Below, piece after piece: positions 3,184 to 48,223 of a stretch of DNA of 49,728 nt; within the stretch, counting starts at the first letter, position 1; each line of letters opens with the position of its first letter. The position numbers and the translations under genes were made by a program. Origin of the DNA: a virus. The notes below the pieces were generated by a model that saw only the letters and a program-made list of their open reading frames with translations, searched no databases and was not told where the DNA came from. The DNA lies in IMG/VR virus record IMGVR_UViG_3300022707_000934, positions 1 to 49,728 of that record. The stretch is one strand, 5' to 3'.

Positions 3184-3492
3184 ATGAAATATCAAATATT
3201 GAAAAGCGACTTAAAGGAAACATGGCAAGATCATCCGGACATAACTGCCGAGATGAACTCATTTATGCATCACACTGGCAGGATGGCAGACGCCCATAAA
3301 TTATTATCGGGCTTTAAAATCACTCCGGAGATCATTACCATCGTCTTTATAGGGTCATTTTATAATCATCAATCAGAGCTTGCCAAGCTTTCATCCGATA
3401 AGGCTTCCGAGCTAGATAGTGCTGAATTTGATCAGCTTATGATATTTGCCAGGGCTGTCGAAACCGGCATGAATATCATCAATCAGAGCTAA
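3184..3492 (+). CDS. hypothetical helical protein
   Basis: 102 residues, all-helical in appearance, with no metal or nucleotide motif. It starts at an ATG three bases after the previous stop, preceded by AGTAAATT and no Shine-Dalgarno sequence. It is the last gene before the structured leader of the replication genes. Confidence 0.65.
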   Translation: MKYQILKSDLKETWQDHPDITAEMNSFMHHTGRMADAHKLLSGFKITPEIITIVFIGSFYNHQSELAKLSSDKASELDSAEFDQLMIFARAVETGMNIINQS

Positions 3493-3509
3493 CATAGTCT
3501 AAAAAAGGA

Positions 3510-3665
3510 TTTGACAGGGGCCGGGATCTTTGCATTCTGGCCCTTATTGTGCGATATAGAGAGAAAAATAATAATCCTTTTAAGGCGTTAAGCCGTTCCC
3601 TGACATTTTCTCTCATGGGTTTTTGTCGCACAATGGGGAACGGCTTAATGCTTTTTAAGGGTTAG
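3510..3665 (+). promoter_or_regulatory. interlocked inverted-repeat leader of the initiator gene (possible RNA pseudoknot)
   Basis: Three sets of complementary arms interleave. ATTGTGCGA 3546-3554 pairs perfectly with 3626-3634. GAGAGAAAA 3559-3567 pairs perfectly with 3606-3614. GCGTTAAGCCGTTCCC 3585-3600 pairs with 3636-3651, 15 of 16 Watson-Crick plus one G-U, and the pairing continues past two mismatches to 3575/3661. The order A-B-C-B'-A'-C' means the inner arm C pairs outside its own hairpin, which is an H-type pseudoknot layout or a pair of alternative folds. The AAGGG just before the ATG at 3666 lies in the last arm and would be masked by it. A separate hairpin (3516-3522 with 3539-3545) and a TTGACA at 3511 lie upstream. 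A control element for the initiator gene or an origin structure are the two readings. Confidence 0.7.
3615..3665 (+). CDS. 16-codon leader ORF abutting the initiator start
   Basis: An ATG at 3615 opens a frame of 16 codons whose TAG stop (3663-3665) touches the initiator ATG at 3666 in the same frame. The translated peptide would be MGFCRTMGNGLMLFKG. Ribosomes on it would open arms A' and C' of the leader structure, so it could act as a control peptide, and amber readthrough would extend the initiator. It has no ribosome site that I can see and could be chance. Confidence 0.3.
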   Translation: MGFCRTMGNGLMLFKG

Positions 3666-4448
3666 ATGGCAGACGATAGCATAGCATTCATCAAACTTGC
3701 CCGGAAAGTATTCGATTCCGAAAACTGGCTAGAACCGAGGACTTTTTCAAAGTTTGAAGCTTGGCTAGACATGATCAAAGAGGCCAGATGGGGTAAAGAA
3801 TCCAGGTCAGTGTGGGTCAATGAAAGGATAATCAAGGTCTACCGAGGGGAGATATTAATGAGCCATAGGTTCATGAGCCAAAGGTGGGGCTGGTCTGAGG
3901 GCAAAGTAAACAGATGGATAAAGCTTCTCAAAACAGAGGGGCAGATAGAGGCACTGACGAGGGCAGGGGTAACAGTCCTAAAGCTTTCTAACTATGAGAC
4001 TTATAATACACCCCATAGTGGTGACGGGGGCACAGACGGGGGCAGCGATAAGGGCAGTGATGGAGGCACAGACGGGGGCAAAACAGAAGAAGGAAAGAAG
4101 GGAAAGAAAGTAAAGAACTCTAAGGGAGAGAAAAAGCCCAAGGCCAAGAAGCCTCAAAACGAGTGGGAGGGACTGCCGGATTTATTGAACAATGAGATGT
4201 TCAAGGCCAAGTGGGGTGACTACGAGAGATACCGAGTTCTACGGAAAATATCAAAACTTTTACACACATCAAAGGTTCACAATTGGAATCGAATGACTAA
4301 ATGGGGCATGGCAGATTCCATTGAATCCATTGACCAGACTATCCGCAGCCAATGGCAGGGTCTCTTCAAGCCCAAGAAGGAAGCAGGCAGTCAAATCGAG
4401 ATGAGCCACGATGAAATGTATAACGAGAAATCAGAATACGGGATATAA
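3666..4448 (+). CDS. replication initiator-like protein (winged helix, DnaD/O-like organisation)
   Basis: 260 residues. Residues 1-110 look like a winged-helix replisome-organiser domain: short helices, an RGEILMSHRFMSQRWGWSEGKVNRWIKLLKTEG turn-helix core and a following strand (VTVLKLSNYETY). Residues 118-160 are a Gly/Asp then Lys-rich linker built on five tetrapeptide units. The C-terminal part, rich in Trp and basic residues, ends with an IRSQWQGLF-type segment common in phage initiators. The role inferred is origin binding and recruitment of the adjacent DnaC-like loader, as lambda O does with P. The ATG at 3666 follows AAGGGTTAG, so it does have a Shine-Dalgarno-like site, within a structured leader. 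Confidence 0.7.
   Translation: MADDSIAFIKLARKVFDSENWLEPRTFSKFEAWLDMIKEARWGKESRSVWVNERIIKVYRGEILMSHRFMSQRWGWSEGKVNRWIKLLKTEGQIEALTRAGVTVLKLSNYETYNTPHSGDGGTDGGSDKGSDGGTDGGKTEEGKKGKKVKNSKGEKKPKAKKPQNEWEGLPDLLNNEMFKAKWGDYERYRVLRKISKLLHTSKVHNWNRMTKWGMADSIESIDQTIRSQWQGLFKPKKEAGSQIEMSHDEMYNEKSEYGI
4021..4080 (+). repeat. five tandem 12-base repeats inside the initiator gene (candidate origin iterons)
   Basis: Unit ends fall at 4032, 4044, 4056, 4068 and 4080, exactly 12 bases apart. The units are gtgacgggggca, cagacgggggca, gcgataagggca, gtgatggaggca and cagacgggggca. They encode the tetrapeptides GDGG, TDGG, SDKG, SDGG and TDGG in the linker. Lambdoid initiator genes carry their origin iterons at an equivalent place. 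A plain low-complexity linker would also give 12-base periodicity, so the origin role is an inference. Confidence 0.55.
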
Positions 4449-7579: not shown

Positions 7580-8713
7580 ATGGAAACTACCTTAGAAAAA
7601 ACAGATGTCAACCCTATTCAACATAGTGCATCTACTGAAATAGTAACCACCAGAGCAGCGCAAGAAGTTCAAGCTGCTATGGTCATCGCCAAGAAATTCC
7701 CTCGCAACGAACTTGCTGCAATCGGGAGGATCTTGCAATCATGCAAAAGAAAAGGGCTGGCCGATACCGCGATTTATGCATATCCACGGGGAGGCACGCA
7801 GATCTCAGGGCCATCTATTCGGCTTGCTGAGGCAGTCGCCCAGAATTGGGGCAACATTGATTTTGGGATAATCGAACTGGATCAGACCGATGGAGAATCT
7901 CAGGTTATGAGTTATGCCTGGGATTTAGAAAGTAATACGCGGGTAACTAAGATATTCACTGTTAAACATGAGCGCAAAGCAAAGGGCATTATCAAAAAGC
8001 TGGATGACCCACGGGACATTTATGAGCTTGTCGCCAATCAAGGGGCGAGAAGGCTTAGGGCTTGCATACTGGGAGTTATTCCAGGTGATGTCATTGATGA
8101 TGCCGTTGCGGAATGTGAGAAAACCTTAGAAGGCAACAATGATGAGCCGCTAAAGGATCGTATAGCTAAGATGATCGCCCGCTTCGAGAGCCTTGGAGTC
8201 ACAGTTGAAATGATTGAGGGGCGCATCCAGAAAAATGTATCTGCTTTATTGGCTATCGACATAGTAAACCTGGGCAAGATATTCAAATCCATCAATGATG
8301 TGATGAGCAAAAAGGAGGACTGGTTTGACTCTGCTCCGATCAAAGCTCCGGACACCAAGCCAACCAAGAAAAAGGCTGCCAAGGTAGTTACGCCCAAGCC
8401 TGCGACTCCTCCCGCTAAGGAAGAGAAACCGGCTAAAACAGAGGGTGAGACACCAGCCGTCATACCCCCTGCTGCTGAAGAAGAGGAACCGCTTCCGTCA
8501 ATTGACCCTGATCCAGTAGAGCCACCAGCCTCGACTGAACCTGCGAAGCCGTTCATAGAATTGCTTTATGATAAGCTGGCAGACGCAGAACTCAATCCTG
8601 ATCAATTGGATGCCTGGGCTGCTAAGATGAAACTCGACATGACCAGAGAAGGAGATGCTAAACGAGCATACAACAACTTCGATAAGGTCAAGGGCGATAT
8701 AGCAAAATTTTAA
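7580..8713 (+). CDS. recombination-associated protein, candidate single-strand annealing protein
   Basis: 377 residues. The first 190 form a conserved globular part (AAQEVQAAMVIAKKFPRNE, SCKRKGLADTAIYAYPRGGTQISGPSIRLAEA, a QGARRLRACILGVIPGDVID segment). I know this pattern from phage proteins often placed beside exonucleases and annotated as recombination proteins. Residues 255-325 are a Pro/Lys/Glu linker, and a short helical C-terminal domain follows. Annealing activity is inferred from this memory and from the Cas4/AddB-like nuclease, SMC-like ATPase and RusA resolvase downstream. No catalytic motif is expected. It starts at an ATG after AATTAATATATT. Confidence 0.6.
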   Translation: METTLEKTDVNPIQHSASTEIVTTRAAQEVQAAMVIAKKFPRNELAAIGRILQSCKRKGLADTAIYAYPRGGTQISGPSIRLAEAVAQNWGNIDFGIIELDQTDGESQVMSYAWDLESNTRVTKIFTVKHERKAKGIIKKLDDPRDIYELVANQGARRLRACILGVIPGDVIDDAVAECEKTLEGNNDEPLKDRIAKMIARFESLGVTVEMIEGRIQKNVSALLAIDIVNLGKIFKSINDVMSKKEDWFDSAPIKAPDTKPTKKKAAKVVTPKPATPPAKEEKPAKTEGETPAVIPPAAEEEEPLPSIDPDPVEPPASTEPAKPFIELLYDKLADAELNPDQLDAWAAKMKLDMTREGDAKRAYNNFDKVKGDIAKF

Positions 8714-47538: not shown

Positions 47539-47774
47539 AGCTTATTCTCCACCTCAACGAACATTACATCAAAATCATCGAACCGGGGACCCGTGAAACT
47601 GAACTCCTGAAAATCCCAGTTCAATACGAAGTCAGGACGAGCAGGAGAGTCATCCTCATCCTCCGTAGCTTCCCACTCCTCTAGCCATGCATCGAACTCC
47701 TTGGTCTTACTCTCAGGGTAAATCCAAAACAGCCCATAGGAATCCTCTCGGATGCGCCAACGTGGTCTAGTCAT
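47535..47774 (-). CDS. hypothetical acidic protein
   Basis: 79 residues from the ATG at 47774 (TGATG overlap with the HAD gene); the longer frame to 47825 is inside that gene. Very acidic and Trp/Phe-rich (EWEATEDEDDSPARPDFVLN). Could be a DNA-mimic-like protein, a guess from composition. Confidence 0.55.
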   Translation of the reverse strand: MTRPRWRIREDSYGLFWIYPESKTKEFDAWLEEWEATEDEDDSPARPDFVLNWDFQEFSFTGPRFDDFDVMFVEVENKL

Positions 47775-48223
47775 CAGAAATCTCCCGGCGCAACCTGAAT
47801 ACAGGTCACCCCCTGGCCCCTCCAATATTCCACCATGCTGTTCCGATCCTCGAATACCACATATGGCTTGATCCCTGCCTTCTCCAACAACTCAGGCTTA
47901 ACAACGGTATCATGCCGGAAATCACCATCGGGGCGCATGAGGAGTCGACCAGTGCTGGCGAACCGCCACAAACCAACACGTTCTAACCAAGTTATAGTAT
48001 GTAGGCGACAGCTTTCTCTACGCCCCGTTAATAAATATATCTCGGCATTTGGAGATAGCGATATTGCAAGTAATAGATCAATGACAGGATCATTATATTT
48101 ATCCTCACCACAACGCTCATAGAACTCATCCCAGTTAGGCGGTATAGTCTTCATGCAATTAACACGGTCGCCCACAATACTGAGAGTCCCGTCAATATCG
48201 AATATGTAATTCTTTACACTCAC
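47774..48223 (-). CDS. HAD-family phosphatase, polynucleotide 3'-phosphatase-like
   Basis: 149 residues. HAD motifs are complete: nucleophile D9 with D11 in FDIDGT, LTGRR (65-69), K109 and acidic VFEDR (123-127). The architecture, with REESCR-like residues after TGR and a DIDGT start, matches the phosphatase half of phage PseT/Pnkp proteins without a kinase. It may clean 3' ends of cut DNA or RNA or release nucleotide phosphate. GTG start with GTGA overlap. Confidence 0.78.
   Translation of the reverse strand: MSVKNYIFDIDGTLSIVGDRVNCMKTIPPNWDEFYERCGEDKYNDPVIDLLLAISLSPNAEIYLLTGRRESCRLHTITWLERVGLWRFASTGRLLMRPDGDFRHDTVVKPELLEKAGIKPYVVFEDRNSMVEYWRGQGVTCIQVAPGDF

Follow-up and report, generated by a model that had tools for sequence, protein, structure and literature searches.

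The replication operon of this phage is likely preceded by a 5' leader RNA of the C4/CI kind, working as antisense-RNA immunity loci do, and this leader is a probable on/off switch for phage replication. The window analyzed here is an entire IMG/VR virus record of 49,728 bases, possibly an incomplete one. The element lies in the 173-nt gap between the end of a 102-aa ORF at position 3492 and the start of the replication initiator gene at position 3666, and its complementary segments follow one another in the interlocked, or knotted, order A-B-C-B'-A'-C'. Phages P1 and P4 have a C4 antisense-RNA locus whose segments follow this very order, a likeness that had been missed in an earlier note on the sequence.

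The three pairings described in that note were all reproduced, on the plus strand. Arm A (ATTGTGCGA, 3546-3554) is a perfect complement of A' (TCGCACAAT, 3626-3634; 9 of 9 pairs), arm B (GAGAGAAAA, 3559-3567) is a perfect complement of B' (TTTTCTCTC, 3606-3614; 9 of 9), and the two upstream arms take the places of the P1 target sites a1 and b1. The A pairing can be extended outward by CCUU/GGGG, with CCUU at 3542-3545. The core of arm C (3585-3600) pairs with the core of C' (3636-3651) at 16 of 16 positions including one G-U. The C arms are longer than first reported, spanning 3572-3600 and 3636-3664 with 27 of 29 positions paired and two T-T mismatches, and together they make up the longest inverted repeat of the window at spacings of up to 150 nt. 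In the extended stem the outer part of C (TAATCCTT) pairs with AAGGGTTA, by which AAGGG (3657-3661), the probable Shine-Dalgarno sequence of the initiator gene, becomes buried. The proposal that the last arm covers this AAGGG is thus correct for the extended 3' arm but not for the 16-nt core. Between core stem and AAGGG lies a terminator-like U-tract, TTTTT at 3652-3656.

In the minimum free energy fold of 3585-3651, the main stem, equivalent to the P1 stem of C4 RNA, encloses an inner hairpin equivalent to C4 P3, in which GACA (3602-3605) pairs with TGTC (3624-3627). B' is placed in the loop of this hairpin, and seven nucleotides of A' (3628-3634) stay unpaired and abut the main stem as they do in P1 C4. 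Positions 3573-3581 (AATCCTTTT) in outer C have a potential alternative partner at 3503-3511 (AAAAGGATT, inverted repeat I2). A 16-codon ORF (MGFCRTMGNGLMLFKG) also runs through the element from ATG 3615 to TAG 3663-3665, its stop codon abutting the initiator ATG; no Shine-Dalgarno sequence was found for this leader-peptide ORF, which could provide translational coupling to the initiator.

The amount of pairing was considered far beyond chance in the earlier note, and the statistics agree. Using a purpose-built, strand-symmetric score for the knotted order, the element reached 87. No value exceeded 73.5 among 4000 dinucleotide-shuffled versions of the region or 72 among 24 shuffled versions of the whole window, and the runner-up position in the real window scored 58.5. 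Since this score is unmatched by shuffles or by other sites in the window, the element is not a product of chance. RNA folding of the region gave a z-score of -6.0, with none of 200 shuffles folding equally well. Several thresholds of the custom scores were fixed after the window had been seen; the safeguards were shuffles, control regions, permutations and the fact that a known C4 locus was recovered without prompting.

Two interpretations of the knotted order had been offered, an H-type pseudoknot or two competing folds, and it is the latter that stood. The linkers between A' and C' (1 nt) and between C and B' (5 nt) can hardly bridge an A+B helix of at least 18 bp, so a stable H-type pseudoknot with all helices present simultaneously is unlikely on the geometry of the coordinates. 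We therefore expect A+B and C/C' to be alternative, competing folds that scarcely form together, and not parts of one knot. For positions 3538-3665, the fold constrained to A+B reaches -37.2 kcal/mol and the one constrained to C reaches -49.9 kcal/mol, while the full-length folds favor C/C' over A+B at -52.6 versus -41.7 kcal/mol. When the transcript is grown base by base, A+B is the minimum free energy fold for 3' ends up to about 3645-3650 and C/C' is favored from 3650-3655 on, which places the flip at the U-tract. Together with the pairings, this predicted flip makes a transcriptional or translational switch for the replication gene the best-supported part of the first reading.

In the switch that we propose, the C-[b' a']-C' hairpin (about 3585-3651) would be a C4-type antisense RNA module, and the upstream arms A and B would be its complementary target sites a1 and b1. 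In the ON state, nascent A and B would pair first with B' and A' of the same RNA, leaving C' and the Shine-Dalgarno sequence free. When A and B are occupied, in the simplest case by a trans antisense RNA from copies already made or from a resident relative, the nascent RNA would fold the C/C' stem instead. Transcription would then tend to stop at 3652-3656, a U-tract of only 5 nt behind a 35-nt loop that is long for a terminator, and any read-through mRNA would keep its ribosome site masked, so that initiator synthesis would cease. Each OFF event would yield one more antisense RNA and the state would be self-reinforcing. The model supposes that the RNA is produced, processed and active in trans, and that termination and translation are switched by it. 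No good promoter was found just upstream of the element by sigma-70 criteria, which may not describe the promoter type of the host; the ribosome-binding-site statistics of the phage suggest a host with weak Shine-Dalgarno use. The switch could serve superinfection immunity as in P1 and P4 or, in a strictly lytic phage, shut off initiation at a set time. Neither a tyrosine integrase nor a resolvase nor an HTH_3 repressor domain was found in the possibly incomplete record, and for this reason the immunity role is not established.

The same flip at the U-tract is expected from an attenuator acting only in cis, as in the RNAI-controlled leader of pT181 repC. Here A+B would be the anti-terminator and C/C' the terminator hiding the Shine-Dalgarno sequence, with the outcome depending on how fast transcription proceeds, on ribosomes or on a separate counter-transcribed RNA, and with no C4-type RNA acting in trans. 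Both systems have a competing anti-terminator and a terminator-like stem that contains the ribosome-binding site before the initiator: stem-loop IV of repC carries the Shine-Dalgarno sequence in its 3' arm directly before the initiator (PMC5703833, PMC5435934), and in the window C/C' is followed by the U-tract at 3652-3656, AAGGG at 3657-3661 and ATG at 3666. A counter-facing promoter box (CGCAAAGATATA) inside most members of a Bacteroidales family described below also speaks for this explanation. However, the pT181 anti-terminator sequesters the 5' arm of the terminator, whereas A and B of the window pair with its loop, in exact C4 order. The antisense RNA of pT181 is moreover counter-transcribed, unlike the C4-type RNA proposed here, and within the element of the window, whose minus strand lacks any sigma-70-like site (the promoter type of the host may differ), no initiator-facing promoter was found. 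We consider the cis-only attenuator unlikely and retain the C4-like leader as the preferred reading.

The C4-like architecture was also found in other phages. Neither the initiator, the DnaC-like protein nor the terminase has a close relative in IMG/VR or the phage collection, and the initiator has none among 84,980 bacterial and archaeal genomes; plasmid and genome searches returned only distant initiators. Searches of IMG/VR and the phage collection, and a search for the exact pattern of the arms, likewise gave no close relative of the element itself. Alignments of the distant initiators were used to fetch 80 viral loci, plus 29 bacterial loci with a second alignment. Upstream of DnaD-like initiators, a knot score of at least 75 was observed at 4 of 69 non-redundant loci versus 3 of 715 control stretches, two of the four being clear (L110 and L094) and two counted although partial (L124 and L147). 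L110 has the same architecture before a DnaD-type initiator in one other phage: an A pairing of TTGGAACCC with GGGTTCCAA, B of TGATCGT, a C stem of more than 20 bp, and then TTTTT directly before the initiator. The partial versions in L147, L153 and L124 have no clear U-tract or full geometry and are not taken as evidence for a class.

A C4-shaped descriptor written from the anatomy common to P1 C4, the window and L110 was run on both strands of 4.8 Mb of fetched phage sequence. The window ranked first, and the other hits scoring at least 80, with low-complexity tandem arrays left out, were L165, L201, L110, L094, L194, L004 and an antisense copy of L110. Canonical C4 and isrK loci were recovered unprompted on the minus strand of L074 (5093-5272; Rfam C4 71 bits). 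The knot-descriptor hits in L158, L159 and L161 fall within a coding gene of the opposite strand and are due to chance; they show that knot scores near 68 alone prove nothing. Five further candidates (L168, L192, L125, L174 and L121) were rejected as coding-looking or weak. An AT-rich phage contig, L199, contains a knotted A-B-C-B'-A'-C' arrangement at 881-1053 with AGGTGA inside C' before ATG 1073; the gene that follows is not an initiator. Long GC-rich tandem arrays of GGTCGGGGCTTC and GGCTAT units occur in or near initiator genes in L115, L117, L180 (at the locus start) and L184 (about 1000-1090), where they produce high but meaningless knot scores.

A family of leader RNAs with the order A-B-C-B'-A'-C' was identified in eight Bacteroidales phage and prophage loci (L148, L165, L094, L106, L196, L201, L213 and L194), the L106 element being identical to that in Bacteroides mediterraneensis (L178). 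The loci share with the window both this order and the U-rich tract after C', and have a Bacteroidetes-type promoter box (TATCTTTG) in front; Rfam gave no match in them. Covariation was assessed by pairing whole segments with cognate versus non-cognate partners over 40,320 permutations, with no picking of helices by eye. For the eight loci, the cognate sum was reached by 2 permutations for B, 4 for A and 32 for C, and by 2 for the pairing between A' and the start codon; versions with six and seven members were also run. The helices of the Bacteroidales family covary, independent of any alignment. In all seven loci tested, A' is perfectly complementary, over 9-11 nt, to the region of the start codon in the ORF that follows, and in the eighth (L194) this pairing covaries to GACCAAGAAC.

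The family thus differs from the window in that A' has a further pairing partner, the next start codon, as an a2-like site; its a' is further drawn into a small hairpin, it contains a counter-facing promoter-like box, and its first gene varies. DnaD-like initiators lie downstream of the element in L148, L094 and L106, while in three loci AntA/AntB antirepressor is one of the top Pfam hits of the next ORF, at E-values of 0.02-0.06 that fall below the curated cut-off. The conserved counter-facing box is AAGATATA (TATATCTT on the other strand), located between B and C at 4402-4409 of L148 and at equivalent positions elsewhere, and suggests an antisense transcript over A and B in these loci.

These comparisons also bear on a translational operator, in which the initiator or another phage protein would bind the pseudoknot or the C/C' hairpin and repress its own translation. 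The inclusion of the Shine-Dalgarno sequence in the structure and the position directly before the gene are in keeping with such an operator. However, the arm sequences are wholly different among the window, L110 and the Bacteroidales loci and the pairing order is kept, so recognition of RNA by RNA fits better than recognition by a protein, and we regard the operator as very unlikely. For a ligand-sensing RNA, another suggestion of the earlier note, no supporting evidence was found. The recommended search of the element against structured RNA families gave no Rfam match, the other pseudoknot families of Rfam included, and an HDV-like ribozyme (P1-P2-P3-P3'-P1'-P2') was rejected on the grounds that in the window element B encloses C.

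The gene behind the C4-like leader (3666-4448, plus strand, 260 aa) matches the DnaD-like helicase loader families phrog_2514 (E 3e-16) and phrog_186 (E 3e-11). The 110 N-terminal residues of its product are similar to phage replisome organizers, among them SPP1 gp38, its best relative shows 48% identity over 108 residues, and a DnaC-like loader gene follows next. On the basis of the PHROG matches, the N-terminal resemblance and the DnaC-like neighbor, replication initiator is a fair name. Five 12-bp direct repeats (GACGGGGGCACA-like) were noted in the middle of the gene at 4023-4080, followed by an A- and purine-rich stretch up to 4140. Outside the replication module, positions 7580-8713 encode a 377-aa RecT-like protein (phrog_3657, unknown function) that is 48-64% identical to proteins of many viral contigs and whose gene adjoins exonuclease, SbcC-like and RusA genes; loci related through it share almost nothing of the replication module. 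Positions 47774-48223 encode a protein whose PNKP-type HAD phosphatase domain matches Pfam PF25109 (E 1.5e-25).

The proximity of the element to the initiator gene might also reflect a structure at the DNA level, namely an origin hairpin or a binding site for a primosome or the initiator; the earlier note had considered a DNA origin structure. Such a function is not favored. The iterons and A-rich stretch at 4023-4140 look like a lambda-O-type origin inside the gene and are a better origin candidate than the leader element, and in the Bacteroidales loci the structure is linked to a start codon. The C stems of the window and L110 contain seven G-T, three pyrimidine-pyrimidine and no A-C mismatches when read on the plus strand, although the score is strand-symmetric; those of the window are G-T and T-T. 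G-T is stable as G-U in RNA, and the opposite strand would carry A-C. The G-T but no A-C mismatches therefore favor a plus-strand RNA over a DNA hairpin, and we hold a DNA-level role to be even less probable than the operator. Least probable of all is a strong terminator of the upstream genes with chance repeats, which would explain TTTTT after C/C' but neither the complementarity of A and B inside the loop (0 of 4000 shuffles) nor the recurrence before DnaD-like initiators and the outcome of the descriptor scan.

RNA-based control of phage immunity and replication is known from P1, P7, P4 and their relatives. We suggest tentatively, as a possibility somewhat short of an even chance, that C4-type RNAs extend far beyond the Rfam family into Bacteroidota gut phages and unclassified phages, and that in the window the module has become fused to the initiator as one self-reinforcing switch. 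Such a fusion would unite the target sites and the antisense RNA with a terminator and a mask of the ribosome site, and each repressed transcript would be a new repressor RNA. To our knowledge, little is known of lysogeny control in the prophages of gut Bacteroidales, for which the leader family offers a concrete, testable switch. The C4 motif was defined in a 2010 survey, which reported it only from Proteobacteria and phages (PMC2864571). If the divergent loci work alike, antisense-RNA control of the entry into phage replication would be a general strategy missed by sequence-based RNA models, and the knotted pairing order rather than the sequence would be the signature to search for.

Among the closest known systems is the C4 locus of P1 and P7 (RF01695 with RF03163, c4-a1b1), which shares with the window the order of segments, the long stem, the inner loop with b' and a single-stranded a' of 7 nt abutting the stem, and which is likewise located in the leader of the operon thought to be controlled. 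In the annotation of the P1 record, the C4 antisense RNA is preceded by the putative target sites a1 and b1 and followed by a2 and b2. We computed the complementarities a1/a' (4256-4266/4390-4400) and b1/b' (4269-4276/4381-4388) around an 18-bp stem (4343-4360/4401-4418), which yields a1-b1-stem-b'-a'-stem', the order of the window, where arms A and B (9 of 9 pairs each) stand in the order a1-b1. Folded alone, P1 C4, window 3585-3651 and L110 4891-4961 each form a long stem and an inner hairpin bearing b', with exactly 7 unpaired nucleotides of a' before the 3' arm. The closing stem of about 17 bp expected for C4 has 17 pairs in the window (3585-3601/3635-3651) and can be extended to 3572/3664. 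The P3 hairpin of the window is short, with 4 bp, although the GACA/TGTC hairpin with b' in its loop and 7 unpaired nucleotides behind it gives a dot-bracket like that of P1 C4.

In contrast to P1 and P7, the window lacks the P2 tetraloop hairpin between stem and P3, has no a2/b2 targets between the RNA and the initiator ATG, and does not match the RF01695 model at the gathering threshold or at E<=10, whereas the positive controls P1, P4 and L074 scored 69-75 bits. For these three reasons we describe the element as C4-like in build and do not file it as a member of RF01695. Arm A has no second copy in the window; arm B (GAGAGAAAA) recurs exactly only at 4126-4134, in a purine-rich stretch inside the initiator gene, which is possibly a b2-like site or a chance match. 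C4 RNA is released by RNase P processing as a trans-acting RNA of about 77 nt; a description of the processing site is given in PMC5320573. The next gene also differs, being icd/ant in P1 and P7 and the DnaD-like initiator in the window.

The CI RNA of P4, another of these systems, is recognized by the Rfam model of C4, and its complementarities are arranged as in the window. This antisense RNA lies in the leader of a replication operon and is complementary to an upstream copy, as proposed for the window; its pairing with seqA upstream and seqC downstream causes premature stops in the transcription of the P4 replication genes (PMC4825925). In P4, the downstream copy and other genes are placed before the replication gene, whereas the window has upstream copies only and its initiator starts 14 nt after the core stem. 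In the window the stem itself covers the U-tract and the Shine-Dalgarno sequence, unlike that of P1 and P7, and it probably stands in for a2 and b2.
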